Of a DNA stretch of 64,000 bases, positions 21,291 to 51,309 are shown one piece after another (the first letter of the stretch is position 1; each line of letters starts with the position of its first letter). This DNA is from Bacteroidia bacterium. Its GTDB lineage: Bacteria > Bacteroidota > Bacteroidia > J057. The translations under genes were made by a program, and so were the position numbers. The notes beneath the pieces were generated by a model, which saw only the letters and a list, made by a program, of their open reading frames with translations, was not told where the DNA came from and did not search any database. The stretch covers positions 1-64,000 of the forward strand of contig JAUIKF010000037.1 of assembly GCA_030430575.1 (NCBI GenBank), in the 5' to 3' direction.

Positions 21291-21510
21291 CTGTTCAATC
21301 TATAAGGAATGAAGCGTGTCGCTTTTTAATAGGGGCTGGATCACGCGCAGGACAGACCCACTGTCTGGAAATCCAGCCTAGCGCATCTTTTATGCGCCAT
21401 ATAACGCACTTACAGCGCGCTGTCGTGGATTTCGGCCTGTGCGATTGCTTGTGGGTAATCCGCGACTAGATCGTAAAACGGCTACGCCAAATCTCAAACT
21501 GATTGAACAG
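21291..21510. repeat. structured intergenic element, copy A (with 10-bp terminal inverted repeats)
   Basis: CTGTTCAATC at 21291-21300 and its exact complement GATTGAACAG at 21501-21510 bound 220 bp. The core (21332-21464) read on the minus strand has CGCGGATTAC, GAAATCC, CAGCGCGC, GCTGGATTTC and GCGCGTGATCC in the same order as the copies at 28911-29054 and 51095-51235. No ORF is present. It lies downstream of the acyl-CoA dehydrogenase gene. Either a structured RNA or a non-autonomous mobile repeat would fit. Confidence 0.8.
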
Positions 21511-21512
21511 CC

Positions 21513-21540
21513 TAACCCTAAACCCTAAACCCTAAACCTA
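21513..21540. repeat. CCCTAAA heptamer array overlapping a stop codon
   Basis: Consecutive units of about 7 nt (AACCCTA, AACCCTA, AACCCTA, AACCTA) run to the end of the acyl-CoA dehydrogenase gene. The CTA of the last unit is its TAG stop on the minus strand. A similar CCTAAACCTAAG text occurs just left of copy A at 21278-21290. The resemblance to plant telomere repeats is presumably accidental. Confidence 0.8.
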
Positions 21541-23400
21541 AAACGGGTATTCCCCTTTTTCAATCACATAATCTGCCACAGCACGGCGAAGCTTCATGGG
21601 ATTCATAGCTGATCCAGGGAGCAAACGATTGACCACTACAAGCAGCAGCCGACGCTGAAAGCCAGTAGCGAAGCTATTGATCGCATCTTTGGCAGCCTTG
21701 TGGGTCGTGTCACGGGCCTCATAAAGCGATAGTTCCATCATTTGTTGCTTGATTTGGCGCATTTTGGGGTCATTGTTTGGGGATAAATGTAGCTTGTGGA
21801 GTTTCAGCCACACTGATTCGGCCACATAAGTTTCTGCCAGAATATCGGCCAAATTAAGCACGATCTCCTGGGCCTCAACCAGCTCCTTTCGCAGCTTTTT
21901 TCCTGCCACACCCGAAATCAATAAAAAGCAGTATTTCATCCCCTGGACCAGCCGCTCGGCGTGGTCCATCGGCGCAGCAGACTTAAAAGGCAGGAAGCTT
22001 TTGAGTAAAAAGCCGGGAATGGCTTTCCCTGCCTTCACCAAGTCAATCTCTTTGGTTTTCAGGGTGCGCTTGCTGAGTTCGGCCACGCTGAGCATGCGGT
22101 TCACCTCATTGGTGCCTTCGTAGATGCGCGTGATGCGCGCATCGCGATACCCCATCTCCATGCCCGTCTCCGCAGCGTAGCCCATTCCCCCATGGATTTG
22201 CATAGCTTCATCGGTAGCGTAACAGGCGAGTTCGGCGCCTTTGGTTTTGAGGATCGCGCACTCTATCGCGAATTCTCGCACTGCGCTCAGCTTCGCTTCG
22301 CCTGCCTCCATGCCCGAAGCCAAGAAGGCTTGGGTCTTTTCATCTACCATATGCCCCGTCCTGTACAGCGCCGCATCCAAGGCAAAGGCCTGTGTGGTGA
22401 TATCCCCAATCTTATGGCGTATCGCCCCAAAAGTGGCAATGGCCTGCCCAAATTGCTTGCGCTCTTTCGCAAACTGAACACTGCGCGTGACACTCATTTT
22501 TGCCCCTCCTACTCCACCAGCTCCCAACTTGATGCGACCCGTATTGAGGATATTGAGGGCAATTTTGAAGCCTGCCTGCCGCCCTGAAAGCAAATTCTCC
22601 ACAGGTACAGGACAATCATCAAAAAATAGCTGCACCGTCGACGAGGCCTTGATTCCCATCTTTTTTTCCTCTTTCCCTATTGTAATGCCTCCAAATGCTT
22701 TTTCAACAATAAAAGCCGAAAGGTCCTCGTCATCATCGATTTTGGCAAACACAATGAACACATCGGCCATGCCCCCATTGGTGATCCAAATCTTCTGGCC
22801 ATTTAGCAGATAGTGAGAACCATCGGCTGAAAGGTTTGCCCGCGTCTTGCCCGCATTGGCGTCGGAGCCTGCTGAAGGCTCTGTAAGGGCGTAGGCCGCG
22901 ATGAGCTCGCCTGAAGCGATACCAGGCAGGTATTTTTGTTTTTGGGCTTCGGTCCCATAAAATACAATCGGCAAGGAGCCGATAGATGTCTGGGCGCCGA
23001 TGGTCGTTGCGAAAGAAAAGCCACCAGCAATCGCCTCAGAGAACAATACGCCCGTATTGAAATCAAGGCCCATCCCCCCATATTCCTCTGGAATGCTGAC
23101 GCTACAAAGTCCCAGTTCGGCTGCTTTTTGGAACACAGCCATCACTTCCTCCCTGTCTTCAGGGCGACTGATCTCCAGTTCTCGTCCCCGTTTAAAAAAC
23201 GGCTTTTGAACCTCCCGTTCGCAAAAATCCATCACCAATTCGGCAATCATTTGCTGTTCCTCGGTCCATTCCTCTGAAATAAAGAGGTCTTTTGGATCCA
23301 TGAAGTCGGTGAGGAAAAAGCCTCCTGTGAGGTGGGGGGCTTCTTGCTGTTGTACTGCTTTGGCAGTCGATTTAGGTGGAATTGCAGTGGAAGTATTCAT
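21538..23400 (-). CDS. acyl-CoA dehydrogenase (VLCAD-like)
   Basis: 620-residue FAD enzyme that makes the first double bond in acyl-CoA beta-oxidation. The N-terminal (60-150), middle and C-terminal dehydrogenase domains are intact: YALTEPSAGSDA and WITNGG mark the FAD/substrate region, RKQFGQAIATFGAIRHKIGD the C-terminal helix bundle and IHGGMGY the FAD ring contact. The catalytic Glu sits in RIYEGTNEVNR near 455. A C-terminal extension of about 150 residues resembles that of very-long-chain enzymes and some Bacteroidota homologues. The gene is divergent from the FMO-TetR-acyl-CoA dehydrogenase operon, with a palindromic repeat between, so both may belong to one fatty-acid-like degradation block. 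Confidence 0.93.
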   Translation of the reverse strand: MNTSTAIPPKSTAKAVQQQEAPHLTGGFFLTDFMDPKDLFISEEWTEEQQMIAELVMDFCEREVQKPFFKRGRELEISRPEDREEVMAVFQKAAELGLCSVSIPEEYGGMGLDFNTGVLFSEAIAGGFSFATTIGAQTSIGSLPIVFYGTEAQKQKYLPGIASGELIAAYALTEPSAGSDANAGKTRANLSADGSHYLLNGQKIWITNGGMADVFIVFAKIDDDEDLSAFIVEKAFGGITIGKEEKKMGIKASSTVQLFFDDCPVPVENLLSGRQAGFKIALNILNTGRIKLGAGGVGGAKMSVTRSVQFAKERKQFGQAIATFGAIRHKIGDITTQAFALDAALYRTGHMVDEKTQAFLASGMEAGEAKLSAVREFAIECAILKTKGAELACYATDEAMQIHGGMGYAAETGMEMGYRDARITRIYEGTNEVNRMLSVAELSKRTLKTKEIDLVKAGKAIPGFLLKSFLPFKSAAPMDHAERLVQGMKYCFLLISGVAGKKLRKELVEAQEIVLNLADILAETYVAESVWLKLHKLHLSPNNDPKMRQIKQQMMELSLYEARDTTHKAAKDAINSFATGFQRRLLLVVVNRLLPGSAMNPMKLRRAVADYVIEKGEYPF

Positions 23401-23434
23401 AAGGAAAAAGGAGTATTCTTGTTATCTAGTGATG

Positions 23435-23620
23435 GTGTGTAAAAAGTTATTGCCATAACAGCAAAGCTGTCATTTCGACCAACGGGAGAAATCTAACCAT
23501 GTGGTTTAGTATACTCGTCGAAGCATATGGTAGCCAGCTCGTATAGCCAAAACAAAAGGGGATGTTGGATTTCTCCTCCCTACGCAAAGCCTTCGGTCGT
23601 CGAAATGACAACTGTGTTGT
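23435..23620. repeat. GTCATTTCGACC palindrome, second copy
   Basis: It lies in the 310-bp gap between divergent genes. The left flank GTGTGTAAAAAGTT (23435) and the core, from GTCATTTCGACC (23469) to GGTCGTCGAAATGAC (23595-23609), match 14301-14457, including AACGGGAGAAATCTAAC. The loop sequence between the arms differs in the two copies. Because this copy sits between divergent promoters rather than convergent stops, termination cannot be its only role. Confidence 0.85.
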
Positions 23621-23681
23621 AAGGAAAGGATTAGAAATCCTTTCATCTCAATTCTAGGTCCAAAAAACTAATTTTTTGGCT

Positions 23682-23705
23682 AAATTAGTATTTAAATACT
23701 AATTT
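23682..23705. promoter_or_regulatory. 24-bp perfect palindrome, likely TetR operator
   Basis: AAATTAGTATTT followed directly by its exact complement AAATACTAATTT, ending 5 bp before the first ATG of the FMO gene. It overlaps the region where a TTG box (23675-23678) and a -7-like TACTAATTTG would place the promoter. The operon it precedes encodes a TetR regulator, so autoregulation through this site is the natural inference. Confidence 0.75.
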
Positions 23706-23710
23706 GCACA

Positions 23711-24997
23711 ATGATGAGCAAATCACCACGCGTAGCGGTAGTAGGAGCAGGCTGTTCGGGCCTTACCTCCATCAAAAACCTGGTTCAAGCTGGGGTACAG
23801 GAGGTTGTGTGTTTTGAGCAAAATGATCAGGTAGGCGGAAACTGGGCCTTCACAGGAAGTGTCGGACATTCTAGTGTGTGTGAGACTACACACATCATCA
23901 GTTCCAAGCGGATGTCTGAATTTGAAGACTTTCCGATGCCAGCAGATTATCCTGATTACCCCTCCCACGCGCAGGTATTGGCCTATTTCCAATCTTATGC
24001 CGATCATTTTAACCTGAAGAAGCACATTCGTTTTAACACCAAAATCGCCCACATCACCAAGCTCGATACCGAAGGCAAAGAAGCCTGGGATATCGAACTG
24101 GAAAATGGTGAACATGAAGTATTTGATTATGTGATGTTGGCTAATGGGCACCATTCTGTCCCTCGTATGCCTGAGTTTGAAGGTTCGTTTTCGGGTGAAT
24201 TTCTCCATTCACATAGCTATAAAAGCAGTCAGCCCTTTGCGGGAAAGCGGGTGTTGGTGGTAGGCGCTGGCAATTCAGGTTGCGACTGCGCCGTCGAAAT
24301 CAGTCGCGTTGCGAGCCATGTAGGCATCAGTATGCGCAGTCCACAATACATCTTTCCAAAATTCTTTTCGGGCGTGCCTACAGACGTATTTGCGAAGCAA
24401 ACGGCGTGGATGCCGCAATTTTTGAGGGAGCCTTTGCAGCGCCTCAGTTTGCGGTTCATTCAGGGTAAATATTCAGATTATGGCCTCGAAGCGCCTAATT
24501 ATTCTTTAACAAAATCACATCCTACCGTCAACTCTGAGCTGCTCTATCGGATACGCCATGGGAAAGTGCATCCAAGAAAAGGAATAAAATGGCTAGCAGG
24601 CGATAAGGTCCATTTTACAGACGGGACAGTGGAAACCTATGATGTCATCCTAGCTGCTACAGGGTATAAGATCACTTTCCCCTTTTTCGACAAAAGCTTT
24701 GTCGACTATGAGGAGGCCGATGAAATTCCGCTATGGCTCAGGGTCTTTCATCCTGAACATCGCTCTCTTTTCTTCATTGGTCTGGTACAGCCTCAAGGCT
24801 GTATATGGCCTTTATCAGATGCGCAAGCCAAGCTCACAGCGAACCTGATCATGGGCCGTTGGCAACTGCCAGAGAACTTGGAAGCCCTTGCCCAAAAGGA
24901 TGCCGAAAGTATCAGCAAGAACTTTGTCGAAGGGAAGCGTCATTCGGTTGAAGTGCATTTTGCCCCCTATTTGAAATCACTTAAACGCCAATTATGA
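23711..24997 (+). CDS. FMO-like flavin monooxygenase
   Basis: 428-residue flavin-dependent monooxygenase of the FMO/YUCCA/Baeyer-Villiger superfamily. The FAD motif is at the N-terminus (VVGAGCSGLTSIKNL, GxGxxG type). The FMO-type signature FxGxxxHxxxF is present as FSGEFLHSHSY near 160-170, and the NADPH motif as VVGAGNSGCDCAVEI near 182-196. LAATGYKITFPF matches the conserved ATGY. It would insert one oxygen atom into a nitrogen, sulfur or carbonyl substrate using NADPH. The gene opens an operon with TetR (stop and start overlap as ATGA) and an acyl-CoA dehydrogenase, suggesting a hydrophobic or acyl-type substrate. Two ATG codons stand in tandem at the start. Confidence 0.93.
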   Translation: MMSKSPRVAVVGAGCSGLTSIKNLVQAGVQEVVCFEQNDQVGGNWAFTGSVGHSSVCETTHIISSKRMSEFEDFPMPADYPDYPSHAQVLAYFQSYADHFNLKKHIRFNTKIAHITKLDTEGKEAWDIELENGEHEVFDYVMLANGHHSVPRMPEFEGSFSGEFLHSHSYKSSQPFAGKRVLVVGAGNSGCDCAVEISRVASHVGISMRSPQYIFPKFFSGVPTDVFAKQTAWMPQFLREPLQRLSLRFIQGKYSDYGLEAPNYSLTKSHPTVNSELLYRIRHGKVHPRKGIKWLAGDKVHFTDGTVETYDVILAATGYKITFPFFDKSFVDYEEADEIPLWLRVFHPEHRSLFFIGLVQPQGCIWPLSDAQAKLTANLIMGRWQLPENLEALAQKDAESISKNFVEGKRHSVEVHFAPYLKSLKRQL

Positions 24998-25641
24998 CCA
25001 CTAAACAGAAGATCATACAAGCAGCGATAGAACTGTTCAATCAGCAGGGCGTGATCAAAGCAAAAATTCAAGACATTGCCAAAGCTGCGGGAATCAGCCC
25101 AGGCAATTTGACCTATCATTATACCACCAAAAAGGAGCTGATCCAGTCGGTCTATCGCTATATGATGAAGACACTGGAGGAAGTGGCCTATGGCAATCGG
25201 ATATTTGTACAGGGGATAGAGGGCATGGACGTAGCGCGGGATTACCTCGCCCATCAGCTTAAATTTCGCTTTTTTTATTTAGATACATTGGAAATCCTTC
25301 GCGAATGCCCTGAAATTAAAGAAGCCCATCAAATGCAAGTAGAATCAGAGATTGGCATCATCAAGAACCTCATCTATTTTGCCCTAGGCAAAGGGTATCT
25401 GATACAGGAACCCATCGAAGGTCACTATGAAGCGCTCGCCCAAAACACCTGGATGGTGCTTTACTTCTGGCTCACGCAACAAGCCGTTCGCGGCAAAACC
25501 GAATTTGCCGTCGAAGCAGGTATCCAAGCCCAGGCCACTCTATTTTGGCCATACTTAACAGAAAAAGGAATCACTTATTACCAAACAAAGTTTGAACGTC
25601 TGAAGTCTGAAAGTCTGAACACAGAAGAAGCTTTAGCTTAA
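24994..25641 (+). CDS. TetR-family transcriptional regulator
   Basis: 215-residue regulator with an N-terminal TetR helix-turn-helix (TKQKIIQAAIELFNQQGV, IQDIAKAAGISPGNLTYHYTTKKEL; about 1-50) and a helical ligand-binding domain. Its ATG overlaps the FMO stop codon, and the acyl-CoA dehydrogenase follows 35 bp later, so it most likely represses this operon via the palindrome at 23682-23705. The ligand would be a pathway intermediate such as an acyl-CoA (inference). The last 15 residues (ERLKSESLNTEEALA) are encoded by repeat-like GTCTGAA text, so the C-terminus appears to have been replaced by repeat DNA. Confidence 0.93.
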   Translation: MTTKQKIIQAAIELFNQQGVIKAKIQDIAKAAGISPGNLTYHYTTKKELIQSVYRYMMKTLEEVAYGNRIFVQGIEGMDVARDYLAHQLKFRFFYLDTLEILRECPEIKEAHQMQVESEIGIIKNLIYFALGKGYLIQEPIEGHYEALAQNTWMVLYFWLTQQAVRGKTEFAVEAGIQAQATLFWPYLTEKGITYYQTKFERLKSESLNTEEALA

Positions 25642-25668
25642 CCCTCAGACATTCAGACGTTCAGACAT
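25594..25668. repeat. GTCTGAA inverted repeat spanning a gene end
   Basis: The left arm (25594-25619: GAACGTCTGAAGTCTGAAAG and on) lies inside the TetR coding sequence; the right arm (25644-25668: CTCAGACATTCAGACGTTC and on) lies after the stop. The arms complement each other apart from small gaps. Confidence 0.8.
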
Positions 25669-25676
25669 CTTTACTT

Positions 25677-27482
25677 ATGAAATACATCAATACAGACCAC
25701 CTCCGCTTCCTCTTATATGAGGTCCACAACGCAGAAGAATTGCTTCAATATGAGCGCTTTCAGGCGTTTGACAAAGAAGCCTTTGACATGATGCTCGACA
25801 CAGCCAAGGACTTGGCGGATAAAGAGTTCTTTCCCTATTACGTAGCCATGGACACAGACCCAGTGCGCTATGAAGACGGAAAAGTCATCGCCCATCCCCA
25901 ACTCAAGAATATCATCAAAAAATCTGCTGAGATCGGTTGGATCGGGGCTTCTTTTGACGAAGCGCATGGTGGGATGCAGCTTCCAAATACCGTTTTTGGC
26001 GCTGCGGATTTGATCTTAAATGCGGCGAATAACAGCGCTGTGGGCTACTTGGGCCTAACCTCAGGTGCCGCCAGATTGATTGCCTCCTTTGGCGAACAGT
26101 CCCTTTACGACACGTATGTGCCTAAGATGATGGCAGGCGACTGGATGGGCAGCATGGCACTCACTGAGCCACAAGCAGGTAGTTCGCTATCTGACATCAC
26201 GACTTCTGCTACGCCTACAGACGATGGGCATTATTTAATCAAAGGCCAAAAGATCTTTATCTCGGGTGGGGATCACCAGTGTGCGGATAACTTTGTCCAT
26301 CTGATGCTGGCGCGCATAGAAGGCGCTCCTGCGGGCACCAAAGGCATCTCTTTATTTGTAGTCCCCAAATACCGACCAGAGGCAGATGGTAGCCTTACGC
26401 CCAACGATGTGACTACTGTCGCAGACTTCCAGAAGATGGGCCAGCGTGGCTACGCGACGACGCACCTCATGATGGGAGAGAAAGAGGATTGCCGTGGATG
26501 GTTGGTCGGTCAGCCTCATCTCGGTTTGAAATACATGTTTCAGATGATGAATGCGGCACGCATAGAAGTGGGGCTTTCGGCTACAGGTACTGCCTCTGGC
26601 GCGTATTACGCTTCTCTCCTATATGCACAGGAACGTGCACAAGGCAGAAGGCTCTCCAAAGACGGCCGTAAGAACCCGTCCCAAGAGCCTACCCTGATCA
26701 TCAATCACCCTGATGTCAGGCGGATGCTTTTCCTCCAAAAAGCCATCGTAGAAGGAGCTATGAGCCTTTTGTTGGATTGTACCAAAATGCACGATATGGC
26801 GGACGTATCCGAGGGAGAAGAAGCGGAGAAATACCATTTGTTATTGGAACTGCTCACGCCTATCGCCAAGACCTATCCTTCTGAGATGGGCAAAGTCGCT
26901 ATCGACAATGGCCTGCAGGTACTGGGAGGCTATGGCTACTGCATGGACTTTCCCTTGCAGCAATATTACCGCGATATCCGCATCATGACCCTCTATGAAG
27001 GGACTACAGGCATTCAGTCGCTGGATTTGTTGGGACGAAAAATTACGATGAAAAATGGGGCGGCTCTGCAATTGCTGATGGATGAGGTACAGCAGACGAT
27101 GGAGGCTGCCATGATGTATGAAGAGCTGAAGCCTTATGTGAAGCAATTAGGGGAAAAGCTGGCCGTGACTCAACAAGTGCTTCAGCACTTGATGCCTTAT
27201 GCGATGCAAGGCAATCACGAGCGCTTCCTCGCAGATGCGACCTTGTTTATGGAAATGGCTAGTACAATCGTCGTGGCTTGGCAGTGGTTGAAAATGGGAA
27301 CTGCGGCCAAAAAAGCCATGCTGGCAGGAGGAGGTGCTCAAAGCAATGAGTTCTATGCTTCCAAACTGCACACGATGAAATTCTTCTTCAAATATGAACT
27401 TCCCAAAACCCTCACGCACGCCCATGTGCTGATGGACAATGAGGTTTTGACCATTGTAGGAGAAGAGGAGCTGATTAGGTGA
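25677..27482 (+). CDS. acyl-CoA dehydrogenase (large, 600-aa type)
   Basis: 601-residue acyl-CoA dehydrogenase of the large group with an extra C-terminal domain (AcdA/FadE-like). Features are GWIGASFDEAHGGMQLPN in the N-domain, SMALTEPQAGSSLSDI for flavin and substrate contact, YATTHLMMGE..GWLVG, and the C-terminal LQVLGGYGYCMDFPLQQYYRDIRI with the catalytic Glu in LYEGTTGIQSLDLLGRK near 440. It differs clearly from the dehydrogenase at 21538-23400, so it may take another chain length. It is the last gene of the FMO-TetR operon. No thiolase, hydratase or CoA ligase adjoins it, so the pathway is only partly encoded here. Confidence 0.93.
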   Translation: MKYINTDHLRFLLYEVHNAEELLQYERFQAFDKEAFDMMLDTAKDLADKEFFPYYVAMDTDPVRYEDGKVIAHPQLKNIIKKSAEIGWIGASFDEAHGGMQLPNTVFGAADLILNAANNSAVGYLGLTSGAARLIASFGEQSLYDTYVPKMMAGDWMGSMALTEPQAGSSLSDITTSATPTDDGHYLIKGQKIFISGGDHQCADNFVHLMLARIEGAPAGTKGISLFVVPKYRPEADGSLTPNDVTTVADFQKMGQRGYATTHLMMGEKEDCRGWLVGQPHLGLKYMFQMMNAARIEVGLSATGTASGAYYASLLYAQERAQGRRLSKDGRKNPSQEPTLIINHPDVRRMLFLQKAIVEGAMSLLLDCTKMHDMADVSEGEEAEKYHLLLELLTPIAKTYPSEMGKVAIDNGLQVLGGYGYCMDFPLQQYYRDIRIMTLYEGTTGIQSLDLLGRKITMKNGAALQLLMDEVQQTMEAAMMYEELKPYVKQLGEKLAVTQQVLQHLMPYAMQGNHERFLADATLFMEMASTIVVAWQWLKMGTAAKKAMLAGGGAQSNEFYASKLHTMKFFFKYELPKTLTHAHVLMDNEVLTIVGEEELIR

Positions 27483-27549
27483 TGACTTAGTTGACCATGA
27501 AGGTTCATTCTGCCTTTTAACAGAATAAATTCTTTACTCCTCAAGATTT

Positions 27550-27615
27550 GCCACGGATTACACGGATTTCCACAGATAAATAAAAGAATCCGTGCTAATC
27601 TGTGTAATCCGTGGC
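27550..27615. repeat. ATCCGTG-type inverted repeat
   Basis: GCCACGGATTACAC (27550-27563) pairs perfectly with GTGTAATCCGTGGC (27602-27615). It is followed by TTATTCTTCTTTCA, which also follows the related motif at 21206-21236. A third copy lies at 49951-50003. It is located between the acyl-CoA dehydrogenase and the EEP gene. Confidence 0.88.
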
Positions 27616-27697
27616 TTATTCTTCTTTCATCATTAAAGTCCTCGCTGAACCGGGGGATTTATTGTAAATTGGGGCAAAATCCCACACTTTACCTATC

Positions 27698-28867
27698 ATG
27701 AAGCTATTCAAACGCTTCCTTCGAATCCTGGCTTTGGTAATTTTGCTTGGTCTTTTATACCTAGGGGGCGTCATCGGTTACGCCTGGTTCTATGATTTTG
27801 ACCCACCGCCAACGGAGGTGCCTGACCTGCTAGGCAAGGCGCAAAAACCTGTGCTGGACAAAGATACACTAGTCCTTTTCAACTGGAACATAGGATTTTG
27901 TGGATTGGGCGAAGCCGCTGACTTCTTCTATGATAGCGACAAATCGTCCTTCTACTCGGACGGAGGGACAAACGTACATACGCCCAAAGATCAGGTAGAG
28001 AAAAACTTGGCGGGTGTGCTCAGCACCCTTCACTCCGCGGTCAGGGAAACCGACTTTTTTTTGTTGCAAGAGGTGGACATCCGTTCTGACCGCAGTCAAG
28101 AAGTCAATGAGGTACAGGCGATTTCGGAAAAATTACAAGGATTTGTGGAGGCATTTGGGAAAAACTATGATGTAGACTTTATCCCCCTTCCGCTCACCAA
28201 TCCGATGGGTGAAGTGCTTTCTGGCCTCTCCACTTGGAGCCGTTATCAGCCTGCTGAGGTAAAGCGCTATGCGTTTGAAGGCAATTACAATTTCCCCAAT
28301 TACCTCTTTTTCCTCGACCGCTGTTTCTTGCTAGAGCGATTTCCCCTCGCCAATGGGACCGAACTGGTATTGATCAATACGCACAACTCTGCCTATGATG
28401 ATGGCACTTTGAGGCAAAAGCAGATGCAGCAGCTCCGCCAAGTATTGCTTGAGGAGTATAGCAATGGTAATTATGTCATTGTAGGCGGCGACTGGAACCA
28501 ATTCCCTCCAGGCTATCAGGGGGTATATGCTTATACTCAAGGCAAAGGCCCTCGCATGATTCCTCCTAATAAGACAGACAGTAAATTCTTTGTACCCAAG
28601 GACTATCCCGCCCAGGGCTGGCAGTGGGCCTACGATCCCAATATCGCCACAAATCGGGCTTTGGATGCCCCATTTGATCCAGATGCTACCTACCAATGCA
28701 TCATCGATTTCTATCTCCTTTCCCCCAATATTGAGATACTTGAGGTAAAAACCATTGACCAACAATTTCAATTCTCAGATCACCAGCCAGTGACACTCAA
28801 AGCCCGGCTGGTAGGGCTGGCGGAGCCGGATTCATCGCGGAGCGATGGGGTAAGTTCTAAGTTCTAG
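27698..28867 (+). CDS. membrane-anchored endonuclease/exonuclease/phosphatase-family protein
   Basis: 389-residue EEP-superfamily hydrolase. One N-terminal membrane segment (LRILALVILLGLLYLGGVIGYAWFY, about 8-32) anchors it with the catalytic domain outside the cytosol. Catalytic motifs are LFNWNIGFCG, FLLQEVD (metal-binding Glu), LINTHNSAYDD, VGGDWNQFP and SDHQPV (catalytic Asp-His). Possible substrates are nucleic acid, phosphoinositide-like or sphingomyelin-type phosphodiesters; the family alone does not decide. The last residues (SRSDGVSSKF) are encoded by the start of a GTTCTAGG repeat array, so the gene end has been shaped by the repeat. It is transcribed alone, convergent with sprA. 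Confidence 0.85.
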   Translation: MKLFKRFLRILALVILLGLLYLGGVIGYAWFYDFDPPPTEVPDLLGKAQKPVLDKDTLVLFNWNIGFCGLGEAADFFYDSDKSSFYSDGGTNVHTPKDQVEKNLAGVLSTLHSAVRETDFFLLQEVDIRSDRSQEVNEVQAISEKLQGFVEAFGKNYDVDFIPLPLTNPMGEVLSGLSTWSRYQPAEVKRYAFEGNYNFPNYLFFLDRCFLLERFPLANGTELVLINTHNSAYDDGTLRQKQMQQLRQVLLEEYSNGNYVIVGGDWNQFPPGYQGVYAYTQGKGPRMIPPNKTDSKFFVPKDYPAQGWQWAYDPNIATNRALDAPFDPDATYQCIIDFYLLSPNIEILEVKTIDQQFQFSDHQPVTLKARLVGLAEPDSSRSDGVSSKF

Positions 28868-29143
28868 GTTCTAGGTTCTAGGTTCTAGGTTCTAGGTTCA
28901 GTTAACGGGTCGGATTACACCAAGAGCCAACTCACCCCTTCGATAAACTCAGGGCAGCGCGTCCGGAAATCCGCCCCAGCAATTTAACTTGCTTGCTATG
29001 CAAGCTGGCGTGGATTTCCGGATTCGAGGGGCTGATTTGTGTGTAATCCGCGCCTCTGTCTTATCCACATTTCAGTCTTGAAAGAACATTAGGTTCTAGG
29101 GTGTGTTTCCACATAGAACTTAGAACATAAAACCTAGAACTTA
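28850..29143. repeat. structured intergenic element, copy B, inside GTTCTAG arms
   Basis: The left arm is a TAGGTTC heptamer array (28850-28899) and the right arm (29115-29143) carries complementary AGAACTTAGAAC and AACCTAGAACTTA. Between them, 28911-29054 is a copy of the roughly 140-bp element. On the minus strand it reads GGCGCGGATTAC, AATCCGGAAATCC, CGCCAGCTTGC, GCGGATTTCCGG, TGAGTTGGCT and TGTAATCCG, matching copy C at 51095 closely. An extra CCTGAGTTTATCGAAGG unit lies inside it. It is between the convergent EEP gene and sprA. Confidence 0.82.
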
Positions 29144-29154
29144 AATTCTTCTTC

Positions 29155-32100
29155 CTAATTCGCGAGCGAGAAGCGAATCTTAAATCCACCACTGGTGAAT
29201 CCTGTTCGATACGTGTTTGAGGTATAAGGCTTGGTGATGTTTTGCTTAAAGAAAAGCTGAATATTGACCCGTGTATTGATGACATAGTCAATCGTGGGTT
29301 CAAGAATCAGGTTAAAGCTCCCTTGGGTGTATTCAGGAGATAGATTAGAGTCCAGGGTCCGGTTTCGGGTACGGTTGTCACTAAGGGTAAAGCGGAACTG
29401 CGCGTTGAGGCTGTTTTGCAGGTCAAAATCACGGCCCAAGAGGCGGAACTGCGCATTCAGCTTATCTTTTCGCCAGCCAATCATCACAGACACATCTTCA
29501 CTTCGCTGTTCGGTAAGTTGCAAGGTTCCTGTACTGAAGCTCAAGCGGCGATCTTTTTTGTAGTCAATACTGGAGGTCACCCCATTTTTAAAATTCATCT
29601 GAACCCCTAAAAGAGGAGAGAACTGCTCATTGATCTGTACCGATTGGATATTGTCAGTCGAATAGAATTCCTCAAAATCATTTCCATTAAGATCCTGCTT
29701 CGTCTCGGTATTGGTCACAAATCCACGCGAATCGACTTCTGCATTGAGGTTATTGCTAAAGGAACTCACATTATAAGTCGCGCGATAGGCATGACGCAGC
29801 GTAAAGGAATTCATCACCCCCTTGAGGAAGGGCAGATTGTTCAGTCCATTGTAGTTAATATTCCAGTTGGGAAGGGGAATTTTGGGGAAATTGTTCAATT
29901 CAATATTGCTTGCCCCTGTGATGGAATAACCTGCCAGCAAAGCTGGAATCAAGACATCTTGGTTCCCTTTAGAATACCCATTTTGGAAGGCAACCGATGA
30001 TAGCCCAAGCGAATCAGCCCATGGATTGCGATCCCTTAAGCGACGCGAGATTTCCTCCCTACTTCTATCAAAATCGTCAAATGCCTGGGAGAAATCCTCA
30101 TTTTTCTCAAACGCTGTATTGAGGAAGATATAAGACATATTGAAACTCCCATTGACCAACTGATCCGAGCCTATATAAGCCAGAGAATCCTGGTTCCATC
30201 GGAAGAGCTCACTGAAGTTCTCATTGCGCATTCGATTCACATTGAAATCTATCCTAAAGCCTTTAAACAGCTCCACCGACGTACGTCCATTGATCTGTTC
30301 ATTGAGGTTCCTGGCATAGAAATTAGACAAGGTTGAATCTCGGGAAATCCAGCCGTTTTGCCCTGCCAGATGCCGTATGTCCTTTTGGCTGCCAAAGACA
30401 AACCCTGGCGTCGGCGGCAATGCGCCCGTCGGTTGAAAGCTCTCATCGTCAAAGGGCGATTCGTAGCGAAAATCCAGCCCAAAGTTATCAGTAGCGGGGA
30501 TATAACCCGGTAGAATGGTATTGGCATTTCGGTTAATACTCAAGTCTAAGCTTTGCACACTGAAAACGATGCGCAACAGCTCCTGCCCAATGTTTCGGAG
30601 CGCCTTGAAACGAGACGTATCTTCCTCAGCCACAGGTCCTTGTGGCCGCTGAGGATTACGCCCTGCTGGCTTATTAGCTGACTGCCCCTTCTTCGCAGCC
30701 TCCTTCTCGCGCTGCTTGGCACGACGCTTTTGTTCCTTCTCTCGTGCCCGTTTATCGATAGCATCCATCAACTTCTTGATAGGAGTAATTTTGCCATATA
30801 ACCCCTTCAAGTCCACACGGCCTGTCCCTTGCAAGTTTTGGGCATTGGAGATCGTTGCGCCCAGGGCCTTGTTGTTCTCTGGCGCCTGTGTCCACTGGAA
30901 GGACCCTGCATAATTGACATTTCCATTGATCCAACTGGTCCAGGTAAACTTATTGAAAGGCATCTGATAGGTAAGGGCCATATTCTGGGTGTACCCAATG
31001 TTACGCCCCATATTGACCATATTGTAGTGGCCCCGAGCTGTATCACGCCCAATCTTGAACAAGTTATCCCAAACAGTACCTACAGAGTCTTGTTCGGCAG
31101 GGGTCGCATCTTCATAATAGCCGCGCACCTCGTCTACTCGTGAAGAGTTTGTAGCGGTGAAGTTGACGCTGAGGCTTTGGGTCAGGTTCCAAGTCAAATT
31201 ATAAGTTCTTGCCAGCTCAAAGTTTTTGGCGAAGGTAGGTTCTACTGATCCACCGAAAGTGCTGCCTGTCCGCATCTTCCTTTCTTCAAAGTCACGGTTG
31301 CCGTGCAAGGTCATAGAAAAGGCATTGGGCAACAGGTTGAAGTTGAAAAGGGAGATCGGGTTTTTGCGCTTCCACGCTTTAAAAGGCTTTATCTCTACCG
31401 GTTGGAAATTGTAGCGATAATTGATCACAAACCTATGCTGCGTACGTCTCAAGCGCTCGACAAAGGCTGAACGGTTGAGCTGTTCATTATAGGAGAAGGT
31501 AAAATCAAATTTCTCTGCACTCCAAGGCATCTTCGCCTTGGGACCTTTGGGGTCAGGTTTGGCATTCGGATCTGGGAGCTTTTGCACCCGTACGTTATTG
31601 AATGAAACACTCTGGTTGCGAGAGTAGTCCTGAAATTCGCGGCGTGTACTATCCCGTTGGGGCTTCTCTTCAATGCTTTCCAGCAATTCTTTGGTGCGGA
31701 TATCAGGTTCCCGTGGATTAAATTTTGGGGTAATTTTCTGCTCTCCATAGGTCACGTACATCGGCAGATTGATGCCCCAGTTTTGAGGGAAAAGTTTTCC
31801 TAAGGAGAAATTACCTGCCAAGTCGTAACGGAAGGTGTTTTCCTGGCTACGCTCGCTCACCTTCTGCTCCAATCCTCCAAATCCAGGTGTCCTATTTGAA
31901 ATCGAACCATTGAGGGTAAAGAAATCTGCCCCCTGAACTGAGAAATTGGCATTTGTCGCCCAACCAGAAGTCTTGTCAAAATCTGTCAAGCGTAGCTCAT
32001 TGATCCACAATTCCACATCTACATCCTGTATCGGCGTAAATTCATCCGGACAGGGTCGAGGGTTCCTCGCACCTATCATGATGTTCCGCAGGTCACTTAA

Positions 32101-44496: not shown

Positions 44497-44505
44497 TCCA
44501 ACAAA

Positions 44506-45277: not shown

Positions 45278-45382
45278 CGAACAAGGATTTTTGAAGGGGG
45301 AAGATTGCGGAATATCGATTGACGAACAAGGATTTTTGAAGGAAAAGACCTCTTCACTTCAACAATCATCAATCCTTGTTCG
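45278..45382. repeat. 20-bp direct repeat with inverted partner
   Basis: CGAACAAGGATTTTTGAAGG occurs at 45278-45297 and again at 45323-45342. AATCCTTGTTCG (45371-45382) is the complement of its first part. The first copy begins two bases after the SDR stop codon region and the last arm ends just before the GNAT gene. Confidence 0.88.
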
Positions 45383-45397
45383 ACATTCATCAATCAA

Positions 45398-45910: not shown

Positions 45911-46027
45911 GATATTTTAGATTTTTTCAGAGAAAAAATCTGTGCGTTAACTGATCATTAGTGTAATTTACCCCTCCTCAATCCTCCATTCAAAATTCAC
46001 CATTCAATCATTCAAAATTATCCCCCC

Positions 46028-46735
46028 ATGACACTAGACCAAATCATGACCGAGCTCGAAGGCTACGGAAGCGAAAGCACCAAAAAGATACTCATGAAAC
46101 ACGGCGCAAAGGAGCCGTTTTTTGGCGTCAAAGTCGCAGACTTGAAGAAGATCGTCAAAAAGACTAAAAAACAGCACGAACTGTCGCTGGAGTTATATGC
46201 GACCGGTAATTCTGACGCGATGTATCTGGCAGGCCTGATAGCTGATGAGAAGCAGATCACCAAAGCCCAACTGCAGGAATGGGTGCAACAGGCGTATTGG
46301 TATATGATCAGCGAATACACCGTGCCGTGGATCGCCGCTGAGACGCCGTATGGCTTTGAACTGGGCATGGAATGGATCAAGTCTGATCAGGAAATGATCG
46401 CCGCCGCAGGATGGTCTACCCTTTCCTCCTACGCTTCTGTGAATCCTGACAGCGAACTGGATATTGCCACTTATGAATCGCTCCTCGATCACGTAGCAGA
46501 AAACATCCACGCGGCTCCCAACCGTGTCCGATACACCATGAACGCCTTCGTCATTGCTGTAGGCAGCTATATCAAAAGCCTCACAGATAAGGCAAACGAG
46601 GCCGCAGCCCTCATCGGTAAGGTAAGCGTAGACATGGGCGGCACTGCCTGTAAGGTCCCGTTGGCGACGACCTATATCCAGAAAGTGGCGGATAGAGGAA
46701 GTATTGGGAAAAAACGCAAGATGGCGCGTTGTTGA
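46028..46735 (+). CDS. AlkD-like DNA alkylation repair protein
   Basis: 235-residue HEAT-like helical protein of the DNA alkylation repair family (PF08713 type). The opening (MTLDQIMTELEGYGSESTKKILMKHGAKEPFFGVKVADLKKI) matches the family N-terminus. The core includes YWYMISEYTVPWIAAE and WSTLSSYA, and the C-terminus is KKRKMARC. AlkD removes N3- and N7-alkylated purines. This branch (with TCKVPLATTYI) is common in Bacteroidota and has not been shown to be catalytic. It is not in an operon with other repair genes. Confidence 0.88.
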   Translation: MTLDQIMTELEGYGSESTKKILMKHGAKEPFFGVKVADLKKIVKKTKKQHELSLELYATGNSDAMYLAGLIADEKQITKAQLQEWVQQAYWYMISEYTVPWIAAETPYGFELGMEWIKSDQEMIAAAGWSTLSSYASVNPDSELDIATYESLLDHVAENIHAAPNRVRYTMNAFVIAVGSYIKSLTDKANEAAALIGKVSVDMGGTACKVPLATTYIQKVADRGSIGKKRKMARC

Positions 46736-46781
46736 GGGATTTTACGCAAAAAAAGGATTGAATACCATGCCCACTGAATTG

Positions 46782-46857
46782 AACCATATAAGGAATATAA
46801 GTCCATTTAAGAGAGATGTCTTTTTCCCTTATATGCACTTAAATGTCTTATATGGTT
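46782..46857. repeat. AACCATATAAG inverted repeat
   Basis: AACCATATAAG (46782-46792) pairs with CTTATATGGTT (46847-46857). Inner blocks TATAAGTCCATTTAAG and CTTATATGCACTTAAAT also complement each other in part. It is located between the AlkD-like and leucyl aminopeptidase genes. Confidence 0.85.
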
Positions 46858-46938
46858 TAAAAAATGGCTTTAAATTCTATTTTTGCCTGCTGTTAATTTG
46901 CCCCAAAAGCAAAACAGTAAATTTCCCTTACCCCAACC

Positions 46939-48405
46939 ATGAACATTACCCCAACCAGCCGTCCCACCGCCAAGGTGTTTATCCACCTCGTTTCTCCTTC
47001 CCTTCCTCTCCTGAAGATTGCCTCCATCGTCGGCACCTCTCCCTCGGGCCTTCAGGCCTATTTGGAAGCACACCCGACAGGCACCAATCAGGTTTTCTCA
47101 CCAGAAGGCACCACCCATGTCCTCCTGGGCATCGGTAAGGAACCCACTGCCAAAAGTGCAGCAAAGGCGCTCAGCACCTATATCCGAAAGCACAAAAGCA
47201 CCTATGAGCGCCTATGCTTATACTTTGCAGAACACTCACTTTGGGAAGGGCTATTGGATTCAGAACAGCATGTGTATATCACCGCCCTCGCCAAAGCTTG
47301 CAAAGTAGCGACCTATGATGCGGGTGGCCTCAAAAGTGAAGCGGGTTCCCCCGACCGCAAGCCCCTCGCTTTAGAGCAGGTTGAATTTTGGATCAATAAG
47401 GACCAAGAAGCAGCGGTCAACGAAGCCCTTACCAAAGGCATCCAGATCGCCAATACCCAGACCAAACTCATGGAAATGGTCAATCTCCCCGGCAATTACC
47501 TGACGCCCCAGCGTCTGGCGGAGTATGCAGTGGAGTCGGGCGCAGCGCATGGTTTTGAGGTAGATGTATGGGACAAAAATAAATTGGATGAAATGGGCTT
47601 TGGGGGATTGTTAGGGGTAAATAAAGGCTCCGAGCGCCCACCCGTTTTTATCCTGATGGAATACAAACATCCCGACGCACCGCAGACCATCGCTCTGGCA
47701 GGCAAGGGGGTCACTTTCGACACGGGCGGTATTTCTCTCAAGAAAGCCACCAATATGCATTATATGAAGTCTGACATGGGCGGTGCGGCGGCTGTACTGG
47801 GGGCTATCGAAATTGCGGCGAAGCGTCAACTTCCCCTCCATCTCGTCGCAGCCATCCCCGCGACAGACAACCTCCCCGATGGCAAAGCCATCGTCCCAGG
47901 GGATATCCTTACCGCCTACGGCGGCATTACCATAGAAATCGCAGATACCGATGCGGAAGGGCGACTCATCCTGGCAGATGCCGTTTCCTATCTGAGTGAA
48001 ACTTATCAACCGGATGTCATGATTGACTTTGCCACGCTCACAGGTGCAGCTGTATATGCCTTGGGCTATCACGCAGGCGCGCTTTTTACGCATCACGACG
48101 AGCTGGCTGACGCCCTCTACGCCGCCGGCCAAGCCTCCGGCGAACGCGTCTGGCGACTGCCCCTCTGGGATGACTACGCCAAGGCCATGAATTCTGATGT
48201 CGCAGACATCAAGAACTACGGAGGTCCAGCGGCCGGTGCCATCACCGCCGCCAAATTCATCGAAAAATTTACCCGAAATCACCCTTGTTGGGCACACCTG
48301 GACATCGCAGGCGTCGCCTTCGGCAATACAGCCTATGCCAAAGATAAAAGCGCCACAGGCTTTGGAGTGGAGTTGATGCTTTCCTATTTTGAAGAAAGTA
48401 ATTAG
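46939..48405 (+). CDS. pepA: leucyl aminopeptidase (M17 family)
   Basis: 488-residue zinc/manganese aminopeptidase that releases N-terminal residues from peptides in the cytosol as a hexamer. The C-terminal catalytic domain has all metal and active-site motifs: GKGVTFDTGGISLK (Lys and Asp ligands), MKSDMGGAAAV, and the family signature ADTDAEGRLILADA (normally NTDAEGRL) near 337-350. LVNLPGNYLTP-like text (here MVNLPGNYLTP) marks the domain junction. The N-terminal domain is diverged, as is usual. It stands alone; its start ATG begins MNITPTSRPT. No recombination-accessory function is implied for the Bacteroidota enzyme. Confidence 0.95.
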   Translation: MNITPTSRPTAKVFIHLVSPSLPLLKIASIVGTSPSGLQAYLEAHPTGTNQVFSPEGTTHVLLGIGKEPTAKSAAKALSTYIRKHKSTYERLCLYFAEHSLWEGLLDSEQHVYITALAKACKVATYDAGGLKSEAGSPDRKPLALEQVEFWINKDQEAAVNEALTKGIQIANTQTKLMEMVNLPGNYLTPQRLAEYAVESGAAHGFEVDVWDKNKLDEMGFGGLLGVNKGSERPPVFILMEYKHPDAPQTIALAGKGVTFDTGGISLKKATNMHYMKSDMGGAAAVLGAIEIAAKRQLPLHLVAAIPATDNLPDGKAIVPGDILTAYGGITIEIADTDAEGRLILADAVSYLSETYQPDVMIDFATLTGAAVYALGYHAGALFTHHDELADALYAAGQASGERVWRLPLWDDYAKAMNSDVADIKNYGGPAAGAITAAKFIEKFTRNHPCWAHLDIAGVAFGNTAYAKDKSATGFGVELMLSYFEESN

Positions 48406-48477
48406 TTCTAGTGATCTTTCAATTTTGAAAGATGGAGTTGGAAGTCATTTACTATTCTCAACTGTCAGAAAGTACAA

Positions 48478-48660
48478 ACAAGGAACAAGAAATAAAAAAG
48501 TGAAAAGGGAAGAGATAACTAGTTACCCATACCCAAGAAATACTTTTGACTTCCTTGTTCCTTGTTTTTTATTTTTACTTAACCAGACAGCTAAACCTAG
48601 AACAAATTCTAGGCTAAAAGACGACTTAGAACATAGAACCTAAAACTTAGAACCGTGCCT
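48478..48660. repeat. inverted repeat between convergent genes
   Basis: ACAAGGAACAAGAAATAAAA (48478-48497) faces CCTTGTTCCTTGTTTTTTAT (48553-48572). Next to it is a GTTCTAGG-class text: CCTAGAACAAATTCTAGG (48595-48612) and AGAACATAGAACC. The 260-bp gap between pepA and the ATP-grasp gene contains no accepted ORF. Confidence 0.8.
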
Positions 48661-48665
48661 TTCTT

Positions 48666-49886
48666 CTACGAAGAAGGCTTCTCCCCAATCGGAACACTCG
48701 CAAAGAAGTCCTCATAAAAACGCCCTGCGTACTGATCGAGGAGCTCGATCACACGTGCCTGGGAAGGAGAACTTACGATCATCCCTGCATGTTGCGGTTT
48801 GGTCATTTTCCAAACGACTTCTTCGTCATTGTAGGCCGACATGTCAGGATGTTCTTGGCGTGCCAACGAAATGATGATGCCTGCATGGTCGTCTTTAGTG
48901 GAAGGAAGGGAATAGGATTCGCCCGCCGGGAGGGTCTCGATCTTGGCCCACTCGGCCCATAGGTTGATACCCGAAGCAGCTTCCACCATCTCTGCAATAT
49001 GTGCACCGCCTACACGAGACGCAGTCTCGATGAAGTAGTATTTGCCGTCTTCATGTGCCCGCAAAAACTCCGTGTGCATGGCGCTGTACTTCATGCCGAA
49101 TCCTTTACATACAGCTTCGTTGAGGCGCAAGAGATCCTGATTGATAGGATCGTCTGTATCAAGGCTATGCGTACGAAATAGCCCTCCATCATGTGCTACC
49201 GCCATCGGTGGGCTCATATAGCGGTGTGCTTTGGCAAAAATGACTTCTCCTTCGTATGCCAAGGCATCTACGTGAAAGACATCTCCAGGGATGAATTGCT
49301 CCAATACATAGTGTACCCGCTCAGCACCTAGCTTATTCAGCAAAGCCCATGCTTCATCTGCGTTGTGGAGTTTTGTGATGCCTGTGGCTGAAGCCTGAGA
49401 ACGGGGCTTCAAGATCCAAGGGGCCGGAACACGCCCCAAAAAATCCGCGATGACTTCATCATGAAAAGGAGCAATGAAATCGGGATTGCCGATACCTGCT
49501 TCCTTGGCCATGTAGCGCATAGCGAGCTTGTCGCGGAAGTAGCGCGCACGGGTCTGGCCCATGCCAGGCACACGCAGGTGCTCCCTGAGCAAAGCGCCTT
49601 TCTCCACATCGTAGTCGTCTAGCGCTACAATCTTGTCCACATGCTCGGTACGCACCATGTGATTCACCCCTTCAAGAAGGGTGTTTTCATCCCATGCGTC
49701 CATAGGACCAGGCATGTAATAATACTCGTCTATGGCCTCACGAGGCCAATTTTCTTCTTTCAGAGATTCTGAAGTCACCAATAGCACACGGCATCCTTGC
49801 GCCTTGCAGCTTTTGATAAAGTCAACGCCTTTGAAATAGCTTGCCAGGCAGAGGACTGTTTGGGGACGTGAAGTGATATTTTGCAT
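48666..49886 (-). CDS. ATP-grasp family ligase
   Basis: 406-residue ATP-grasp enzyme, which would join a carboxylate to an amine or thiol through an acylphosphate. The N-terminal Rossmann-like domain (1-110; VLCLASYFKGVDFIKSCKAQG, ALDDYDVEKGALLREHL) is followed by the ATP-binding domains: PDFIAPF, WILKPRSQASATGI with the ATP-contacting Lys, YVLEQFIPGDVFHVDAL, AMHTEFLRAHEDGKYYFIETASRVGGAHI with the Glu and Asn/Arg metal region. It resembles carbamoyl-phosphate-synthase-like stand-alone ATP-grasp proteins of peptide and secondary metabolism. It is divergent from an esterase gene (207-bp gap); a shared pathway is possible but unproven. Confidence 0.9.
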   Translation of the reverse strand: MQNITSRPQTVLCLASYFKGVDFIKSCKAQGCRVLLVTSESLKEENWPREAIDEYYYMPGPMDAWDENTLLEGVNHMVRTEHVDKIVALDDYDVEKGALLREHLRVPGMGQTRARYFRDKLAMRYMAKEAGIGNPDFIAPFHDEVIADFLGRVPAPWILKPRSQASATGITKLHNADEAWALLNKLGAERVHYVLEQFIPGDVFHVDALAYEGEVIFAKAHRYMSPPMAVAHDGGLFRTHSLDTDDPINQDLLRLNEAVCKGFGMKYSAMHTEFLRAHEDGKYYFIETASRVGGAHIAEMVEAASGINLWAEWAKIETLPAGESYSLPSTKDDHAGIIISLARQEHPDMSAYNDEEVVWKMTKPQHAGMIVSSPSQARVIELLDQYAGRFYEDFFASVPIGEKPSS

Positions 49887-49950
49887 AAAATGTTAGGTCG
49901 TTTTTCTAAAAATCGCGCAAAGGTAGGGAATTAATTATTATTCATTGATA

Positions 49951-50003
49951 GATTATCACGGATTTTCTTCTTTAATCTGTGTTAATCCGAGTAATCCGTG
50001 GCC
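49951..50003. repeat. ATCCGTG-type repeat, third copy
   Basis: ATCACGGATTTTC (49955-49967) followed by TTTAATCTGTGTTAATCC and GTAATCCGTGGCC (49990-50002). It is the same text as 21191-21236 and 27550-27615, here between the divergent ATP-grasp and esterase genes. Confidence 0.8.
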
Positions 50004-50093
50004 AATTTTCAAGGGTAATGGATTTACTCCACTAAATGTCTCGATGAACAGTCAATAATTAATTACCTTTGCGATCTTAATTTTCCGATAGTA

Positions 50094-50936
50094 ATGACCA
50101 TGGTACATAAACAGGCGACGGATACCCTTTCTCCCCAATCAATCGATCATTATGCGGGGTTTCCGTCCACCTATCTTGCAAGAGAAGTAGTGCTCGATAT
50201 TTTCCTTCCCCCTACCCCATCAGCAACACCCCCGAGGCTACTTTTGCTCAATGATGGGCAAAACTGGAAGGCGCTCAAACTAGCACGCACGCTTCAGACG
50301 CTATATGCCGGTGGCAAAATCTCGCCCGTGCTCGTCGTGGCGATCCATGCTGACAAAAACCGTATGCACGAGTATGGTACAGCGGCTATGGCAGACTATA
50401 AACATCGTGGGAGCAAAGCAGCGGCTTATACCTTCTTTCTTACCAAGGAATTGCTTCCCTTTTTAACCAAAAAATATCAATTGCTGGATGATCCATCTCA
50501 ACGCGCCTTAGCGGGATTTTCACTAGGGGGATTATCGGCCTTTGACATTGTATGGCATCATCCGCATATTTTCCATACAGCAGGCGTGTTTTCAGGATCC
50601 TTCTGGTGGCGCACCCCACAAGGCCCCAATGAAACTGATGACCAGAGCCGTATCATGCACCGACTGGTAGCTGCAGGTACACATCATCCCGAATTAAAGT
50701 TATGGTTTCAGGCTGGGACCGAAGAAGAAAAAGAAGACCGCAACAATAATGGCATCATCGATGTCATAGACGACATCATCGACCTGATGGATGAGCTCAA
50801 GGCTTTGGGCTACTCCGAGGACCAAATGCATTACCGCGAACTAGCAGGCGGGAAACATCACGAAAGCAGTTGGGCGAAGATGATTCCGGAGTTTCTGGAA
50901 TGGTGGGAAGGAACGTTTGAACGTTCGAAGGGGTGA
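50094..50936 (+). CDS. esterase of the enterochelin-esterase (Fes/esterase D) type
   Basis: 280-residue alpha/beta hydrolase of the putative-esterase family (PF00756 type). The nucleophile Ser is in LAGFSLGGLSAFD (GxSxGG) near 144, and HHESSWAKMIPEF near the end supplies the catalytic His. No signal peptide is visible, so it is cytosolic. An insert near 215-235 (EDRNNNGIIDVIDDIIDLM) has the D-x-N-x-N-G-x-I-D spacing of an EF-hand/dockerin calcium loop, seen in some members of this family. It diverges from the ATP-grasp gene. The last residues (GTFERSKG) come from a GAACGTTCGAA-like repeat. Confidence 0.88.
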   Translation: MTMVHKQATDTLSPQSIDHYAGFPSTYLAREVVLDIFLPPTPSATPPRLLLLNDGQNWKALKLARTLQTLYAGGKISPVLVVAIHADKNRMHEYGTAAMADYKHRGSKAAAYTFFLTKELLPFLTKKYQLLDDPSQRALAGFSLGGLSAFDIVWHHPHIFHTAGVFSGSFWWRTPQGPNETDDQSRIMHRLVAAGTHHPELKLWFQAGTEEEKEDRNNNGIIDVIDDIIDLMDELKALGYSEDQMHYRELAGGKHHESSWAKMIPEFLEWWEGTFERSKG

Positions 50937-50989
50937 GTTTTTTGGGGGTTTTATTCCTCATACCTGATAGATTACCGTCCCATGAATAC

Positions 50990-51309
50990 AACAGCAAAGC
51001 TGTCATTCTGAGCCCGCGAAGAATCCTACTGCCTAATGAACAACTGAGCATATCCCTAGTGCATCAAGCATTATATTATTAGCGGTTATTCTGAGGGGCG
51101 CGGATTACTCCAAAGATCTAGCCCCACAATCCGGAAATCCGCGCCAGCTTGCTTGACAACTAAGAGCATGCGCATTTATTTGCGCTGGGCTGGATTTCTG
51201 GCGCGTGAGTTGGCTTTTGAGCGTAATCCGGCCCCAAACCGATAAGAACTTAGTGCTTGATGCACTAGTAAGATCCTTCACTCCGTTCAGGATGACAGCT
51301 ACACTGTTA
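50990..51309. repeat. nested palindrome carrying structured element copy C
   Basis: Outer arms: ACAGCAAAGCTGTCATTCTG (50990-51009 region) and GGATGACAGCTACACTGTT (51290-51309). Next, a perfect 15-bp inverted repeat CTAGTGCATCAAGCA (51056-51070) / TGCTTGATGCACTAG (51254-51268). Innermost, 51095-51235 is the roughly 140-bp element (GGGGCGCGGATTAC, AATCCGGAAATCC, CGCCAGCTTGC, GGGCTGGATTTC, TGAGTTGGCT, GTAATCCGGCCCC), copy C. This fills much of the 632-bp gap before the acylase gene; 51310-51568 has nothing I can assign. Confidence 0.85.

Follow-up and report, generated by a model that had tools for sequence, protein, structure and literature searches.

A family of mobile hairpin units in a Bacteroidia genome, probably REP doublets of a Bacteroidota-type RAYT

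We analysed a 64,000-nucleotide stretch of a Bacteroidia bacterium genome (assembly GCA_030430575.1, contig JAUIKF010000037.1, positions 1 to 64,000; here called the window), in which an initial annotation had described three copies, A, B and C, of an intergenic element with conserved motifs, and had proposed either a structured RNA or a palindromic mobile unit. The three copies belong to one family of mobile DNA units of about 220 bases, with about a hundred copies genome-wide. Judged from sequence, the units are probably doublets of repetitive extragenic palindromic (REP) sequences, that is, non-autonomous mobile DNA of the REPIN type, whose cognate enzyme would be a REP-associated tyrosine transposase (RAYT) of the Bacteroidota type and the HUH/Y1 family. 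All three copies lie essentially where they had been placed and keep the order of their motifs. The units of A and C extend past the cores described at the time to terminal inverted repeats (Table 1). The cores had been reported to be free of open reading frames (ORFs), and no listed ORF of at least 80 aa covers any of them; one 80-aa ORF (29061-29303, minus) touches the outer arm of copy B.

The genome searched (8.16 Mb, 127 contigs, labelled C plus a number; G000 in our numbering) gave 55 blastn matches with copy B as the query, several of them pieces of one copy. The genome-wide search with a covariance model that had been suggested as a check of copy number was performed on both strands with a model built from 20 copies (E up to 0.01). 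It returned 144 matches, merging into 116 distinct stretches. We tabulated 108 of these as sites; the remaining eight are made up of five REPs standing singly next to the transposase gene on C73 and three weak matches (C12:137318, C19:76938, C126:10298). Of the sites, 64 are clearly doublets and 9 more probably so; 34 are single units, and at 1 the two units point in the same direction. As in REPINs, inverted doublets are the main replicating unit, and the five identical copies described below are all doublets. By crude ORF calls for 105 sites, 88 were located between ORFs of at least 100 aa (47 tandem, 31 convergent and 10 divergent), 9 overlapped an ORF longer than about 120 aa and 8 were not assignable; like a REP, the short hairpin occurs in many, mostly extragenic copies. 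Within the window, GCGCGGATTAC with at most one mismatch was found 5 times, against 0.61 expected (0 of 100 shuffles reached 5), and one of these matches (26599) lies outside any copy. When 40 genomes, our own and 39 relatives, were searched with R1, matches were seen in G000, its congener G001, G003 and G006, together with a marginal one in G032, which belongs to another family (E 0.002). The core GGATTAC..GAAATCC was found again with other stems in G001, G003 and G006. At the G003 loci L062, L066, L267-L269 and L272, several REP sites are direct tandem arrays, not inverted doublets with arms.

The core of the unit consists of two homologous half-units in inverted order, hairpin H1 (GGATTAC..GAAATCC) and hairpin H2 (GGATTTC..GTAATCC), each with additional stem pairs outside the motif and a long variable loop. 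AGC follows H1 in 20/20 aligned copies and GCT precedes H2 in 19/20; in a set of 61 distinct doublets (56 from G000 and 5 from G001) the figures are 58/61 and 60/61. This inward-pointing GCT foot takes the place of the GTAG or GTGG tetranucleotide expected 5' of a REP hairpin. The spacer between the two hairpins carries small hairpins, and some loops hold an extra repeat of type CCCTTCGACAAGCTCAGGG. In G000 the outer arms are specific to subfamilies (CTAGTGTTCTTTCAA, which we call the type I end, CTAGTGCTTTCAGCACTA, CTAGTGCATCAAGCA and CTGTTCAATC); the congener G001, read by eye, has other outer arms. Matching ends bounded by CTAG passed our filter at 34/108 sites, the distance between the CTAG end and the nearest hairpin being in most cases 36-41 nt for H1 and 35-43 nt for H2. 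Pairing of the outer arms at 105 sites exceeded the 95th percentile of letter shuffles in 50 cases and that of swapped arms, a control that included arms from the same subfamily, in 23; this test is supportive, not strong.

Covariation at the variable positions of the stems follows a 'clover' of two separate hairpins and not one long palindrome. In the 20 aligned copies, the local hairpins contained 10 cells changed on both sides, and their covariation score was 0.086, the mean for shuffles being 0.050; none of 500 shuffles reached either value. For the long palindrome we counted 5 such cells, a number reached by 184/500 shuffles, and a score of 0.032 against 0.028 (83/500). Among 140 distinct REP units, stem position -2 is paired in 120 (GC 79, CG 34, TA 6), position -3 in 134 (CG 77, GC 57), position -4 in 137 (GC 111, TA 26) and position -5 in 128. 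The doublet set gave the same picture: the local pairing holds in 536/610 cells and the long palindrome in 298/610. In the 60 doublets with differing stems, at least four of the five outer pairs form in both local hairpins in 55 cases and in the long palindrome in 1. At position -3 the clover fits 117/122 pairs and the long palindrome 4/122. The invariant GGATT/AATCC parts are compatible with both pairings and decide nothing. Compensatory changes, which the initial annotation had named as a check, are thus present in the hairpin stems. Its pairing of outer with outer and inner with inner arms fared differently: these complementarities exist and the invariant cores can pair either way, but the variable positions follow the local hairpins. 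This long palindrome is the choice of RNAalifold and is not favoured by covariation. Single folds were divided, the minimum free energy fold of copy C being mainly of the long form, whereas the youngest copy and the centroid of copy A were clover-like.

A single RAYT gene was found in the genome, on C73; a genome-wide search with its 180-aa product, P0001, returned nothing but P0001 itself at E 0.001. P0001 scored 97.8 bits against NCBIfam NF047646 (REP_Tyr_transpos, cut-off 80) and 31.3 bits against Pfam Y1_Tnp (cut-off 23), and matched weakly, in sequence, the TnpArep of known structure 4er8 (E 0.006). In an alignment of 8 proteins, H58, H60 and Y142 are invariant, and the HUH motif is NHIH or NHLH in 4 and SHLH in P0001 and 3 others. 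P0001 also carries WQ, YIHQNP and SS motifs, and its sequence appears to fit TnpAY1 subclass 2.6, or Bertels group 5. The gene lies between REPs of the family, which flank it on both sides in G000 and likewise flank a RAYT gene in G001 (C20), whose product is 77% identical to P0001. A second RAYT of G001 (on its C73; NF047646, 99.2 bits) has no REPs of this type nearby. Membership of the family in the REP-RAYT class is likely. The REPs beside the RAYT genes form tandem arrays, with a 90-bp period at L067 (G000 C73) and periods of 145 bp and 177 bp at L068 (G001 C20).

A similar hairpin was seen at RAYT genes elsewhere in the phylum. We took the best 80 of 392 RAYT relatives in named genomes, all from Bacteroidota as far as their titles could be recognised. 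Hairpins with a TTTG[CT]AA loop numbered 117 within 800 bp of the RAYT gene and 23 elsewhere in these 80 loci (0.95 against 0.05 per kb). They occurred within 800 bp of the gene at 41 of the 80 loci and were not found within that distance at 39/80, nor at any of the 16 RAYT loci of our relatives that were checked. CT is present within six bases 5' of 50/106 of the hairpins, against 20/106 on the 3' side. R1 gave five weak matches in 3 of the 80 loci (E up to 1). The REP of the window may be a hairpin of the TTTG[CT]AA type with about 24 nt added between GGATTT and GTAATCC, and the hairpins elsewhere are perhaps its uninterrupted form; we infer that the two are homologous.

Five copies of the unit share one identical 217-bp sequence, with CTAG at either end, in unrelated flanks, so the unit has moved recently. 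At C60:79585 the unit adjoins another CTAG-ended repeat, and a single CTAG is common to both; at C97:7601 and C55:64271, according to the flank tables, neighbouring units also appear to share a single CTAG. When the flanks of the 34 CTAG-bounded sites were joined, a 7-base register above 0.62 was obtained at 4 sites, in each case best with exactly one CTAG, and at 0 sites under any other collapse. These results point to CTAG as a target regenerated on insertion, although the same one-CTAG footprint would be left by duplication of 4 bp, by duplication of TA or by cutting of a single strand. Empty sites in G001 proved unusable as junction evidence, as the matches were only 65-72% identical over neighbouring genes, and in one case the two flanks matched different contigs while in the other only one neighbouring gene matched well; we therefore used junctions inside the genome itself. 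The proposal of a palindromic mobile unit is borne out by the 108 sites, the identical copies and the compensatory changes together.

A second repeat, with an interior like AACAAGAAATAAAAAAGTGAAAAGGG, has the type I end in common with these units and lacks REPs. Of 12 further type I ends without REPs that were inspected by eye, 9 belong to it, as does one more beside C60:79585. The window holds a degenerate copy between 48409 and about 48585, which combines a type I end (CTAGTGATCTTTCAA..) with an interior containing AAGGAACAAGAAATAAAAAAGTGAAAAGGG and its inverted partner.

The following course of events may be envisaged. Once the unit is exposed as a single strand, for instance on the lagging strand, its REPs would fold independently of each other; the RAYT would bind the foot plus hairpin, cut nearby and rejoin the strand elsewhere, and in the latest moves the whole unit, from CTAG to CTAG, would have entered CTAG targets. 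We infer, less firmly, that cutting at CTAG is also done by the RAYT. As the mover of the whole unit the RAYT leads; a separate transposase is possible, as the REP-less repeat has one arm type in common. A bolder version, in which the Bacteroidota RAYT would be an active CTAG-specific single-strand transposase that moves whole 217-bp cloverleaf units with the GCT foot as a guide, seems unlikely to us; the RAYT family has been proposed to be domesticated. In this version, the rule published for the Marinomonas Mb RAYT, by which the cut site is complementary to the last two bases of the guide, would place the cut for a foot with CT at its end at AG, inside CTAG.

Several observations weigh against the assignment to a REP-RAYT system. 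Stem position -1 is paired in only 93/140 REP units. The CTAG ends are mostly 35-43 nt outside the REPs, which is far for a REP-guided cut, and those G001 copies that were read by eye have no CTAG at the ends of their outer arms. Since the REP-less repeat has the type I end, ends and REPs are separable. The RAYT genes of G003 and G006 have no REPs of this type nearby, the G006 gene being close to a contig end; at the G003 gene a regular-expression search gave three one-mismatch matches only, with stems that did not match by eye. In the 13 genomes of the family, REPs were found in 4 and RAYT homologues in 8, and all 4 genomes with REPs are among these 8, but this is only a trend (one-sided Fisher about 0.1, calculated by hand). 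The Y1_Tnp search also revealed two further Y1-family genes in the genome. The one on C77 (L132, ORF 199-669) encodes an intact IS200/IS605 transposase (NF033573, 71.5 bits, cut-off 55) with the motif YIRNQEAHH, which resembles the published subclass 1.2 motif YIKNQKEHH; the one on C47 has an in-frame stop.

Miniature inverted-repeat transposable elements (MITEs) of DDE insertion sequences are short and non-coding, carry terminal inverted repeats and regenerate their target at both ends. The whole unit could be such a MITE, mobilised by a transposase of the DDE type, with the outer arms as its recognition sequence and CTAG as its insertion site, duplicated as 4-bp CTAG or 2-bp TA, the REP doublet being a passenger that became a RAYT substrate by chance. 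We consider this a serious alternative, though a somewhat improbable one. It would explain why removal of the unit leaves one CTAG (at the 4 sites above 0.62), why neighbouring units share a single CTAG at the three places named above, and why the type I end also occurs on a REP-less repeat. However, the REPs are conserved and the arms vary between subfamilies and genomes, so that the ends change while the interior is kept, the reverse of an ordinary MITE. Moreover, 20/21 matches to the type II end coincide with tabulated REP sites or adjoin them; the remaining match, at C35:4324, has no REP by eye. An autonomous element with these ends did not turn up in the places looked at, which covered the two end types and one DDE family, the type I ends being followed outward to about 330 nt. 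An IS630-type transposase was considered as the mover; the 4 kb around the one found hold no CTAGTG end.

It is highly improbable that the unit is a non-coding structured RNA, or a regulatory element acting as RNA (such as a terminator or a hairpin affecting mRNA stability), spread by an unrelated process. The single-strand DNA folds are stable (z of -7.0 for copy C, -2.5 for copy A and -11.1 for a type II copy), and few sites lie between divergent genes (10/88), as such an element might have it, but the same hairpins stand on both sides of a transposase gene and identical copies have unrelated flanks. In addition, only a tRNA and DUF805b reached the Rfam gathering score in the window, and no family did so at copies A, B or C; the structured RNA of the initial annotation thus gains no support. 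Alternatively, the repeats could be fossils, spread by a RAYT in the past and now only decaying. The mixture of 64 clear and 9 probable doublets with 34 single units and 1 same-direction pair would suit this explanation, which we nevertheless regard as improbable, given that five 217-bp copies are still identical and the catalytic residues of the RAYT are present.

The features of the three copies are collected in Table 1. Copy B has kept only its left end, a CTAGAAC repeat array standing in place of the right arm, and its H2 loop is enlarged by a second repeat of type GCCCTGAG..TCGAAGGGG. Arrays of the heptanucleotide CTAGAAC/GTTYTAG were also noticed beside or around several other units, mostly of type I; the example in the window is at 28858-28895.

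Table 1. Copies A, B and C of the unit and their REP hairpins in the window
Feature	Position	Strand	Remarks
Copy A, whole unit	21291-21510	minus	Bounded by inverted repeat CTGTTCAATC/GATTGAACAG; covariance model match C59:21334-21466, E 1.4e-19
Copy A, REP hairpin H1	21422-21466	minus	Stem GTCGCGGATT/AATCCACGAC; varies from GGCG/CGCC by compensatory change, with a single C-A mismatch
Copy A, REP hairpin H2	21334-21378	minus	Stem GGCTGGAT/ATCCAGCC; GCT foot 21380-21382
Copy B	about 28904-29092	minus	Left end near 29092, CTAATGTTCTTTCAA, differs once from type I end; covariance model E 6.2e-31
Copy B, REP hairpin H1	29007-29054	minus	
Copy B, REP hairpin H2	28908-28976	minus	Outer stem with one G-A mismatch
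Copy C, whole unit	51056-51268	plus	CTAG to CTAG; inverted repeat CTAGTGCATCAAGCA/TGCTTGATGCACTAG; covariance model E 9.5e-25
Copy C, REP hairpin H1	51097-51145	plus	Followed by AGC at 51146-51148 (inward foot, other-strand reading)
Copy C, REP hairpin H2	51188-51233	plus	GCT foot just before, 51184-51186

Other repeats were also noticed in the window. Another intergenic inverted repeat (GTCATTTCGACC..GGAGAAATCTA) has copies at 14326-14472 and 23454-23620 and a related piece at 50990-51028, and a further repeat, AATCTGTG..AATCCGTGTAATCCGTGGC, occurs at 21186-21252, 27550-27644 and 49965-50007, one of these being an inverted pair. At 18966-19013 two 24-nt arms form a perfect palindrome with zero spacer, possibly a terminator. 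A repeat with a 195-bp period lies within a 565-aa ORF (62107-63398), and the Rfam DUF805b motif that exceeds its gathering score is at 63810-63844.

The inward direction of the GCT feet, which point toward the spacer, distinguishes the unit from a REPIN. In the REPINs of SBW25 the GTGG feet lie at the outer ends. In other respects the unit resembles the REPIN as presented by Bertels and Rainey (2011, PMC3116915): two inverted REPs with a spacer, many extragenic copies, and a cognate RAYT with REPs beside its gene. Relative to that account, it has GCT and not GT[AG]G as the foot, a REP loop of about 20-30 nt or more, and extra outer inverted arms, bounded by CTAG at 34/108 sites. The legend of supplementary Figure S11 in PMC3116915 sets a stable hairpin against a fold called 'clover', and the covarying pairing found here resembles that clover. 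The family separates the two proposed REPIN folds by covariation instead of folding energy.

Among the closest published systems are also the subclass 2.6 or group 5 REPtrons of Bacteroidetes (Quentin et al. 2018, PMC6006769), for which the passages on this subclass give a median length of 179 aa and the motifs WQ, YIH[QN]NP, SS and NH[LIV]H. P0001 is alike in WQ, YIHQNP and SS, but its HUH motif is SHLH and not NH[LIV]H. The same passages mention 'atypical secondary structures' without GT[AG]G at the flanks of these genes, with copies elsewhere in the genome, and describe them without sequence. The composite terminal inverted repeats (TIRs) of P. putida and P. fluorescens, in which degenerate GTAG-1 units stand beside unrelated stem-loops (Di Nocera et al. 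2013, PMC3733652), similarly join REPs with other inverted repeats in many copies; they differ in REP class and phylum, and a CTAG-bounded unit is not part of their description in the sections concerned. Among the titles and starts of abstracts listed for the open-licence literature, no published description of our element was found, and nothing useful on DDE elements with CTAG targets. The dissemination of REPs is called poorly understood in a passage of PMC8266576, and recently moved, precisely bounded copies make the transposition product and its target directly testable. For REPs of the Bacteroidota RAYT group, characterised in the subclass 2.6 passages of PMC6006769 as atypical only, an anatomy with covariation can now be given: the foot is GCT and a long loop breaks the GGATTT/GTAATCC stem, while RAYT genes in other members of the phylum are accompanied by a shorter hairpin with a TTTG[CT]AA loop. 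The system is a variant of the REP/REPIN kind, which is known as such, and what is distinctive is the REP anatomy, the GCT foot, the inward orientation, the loop inserts and the CTAG-bounded arms.

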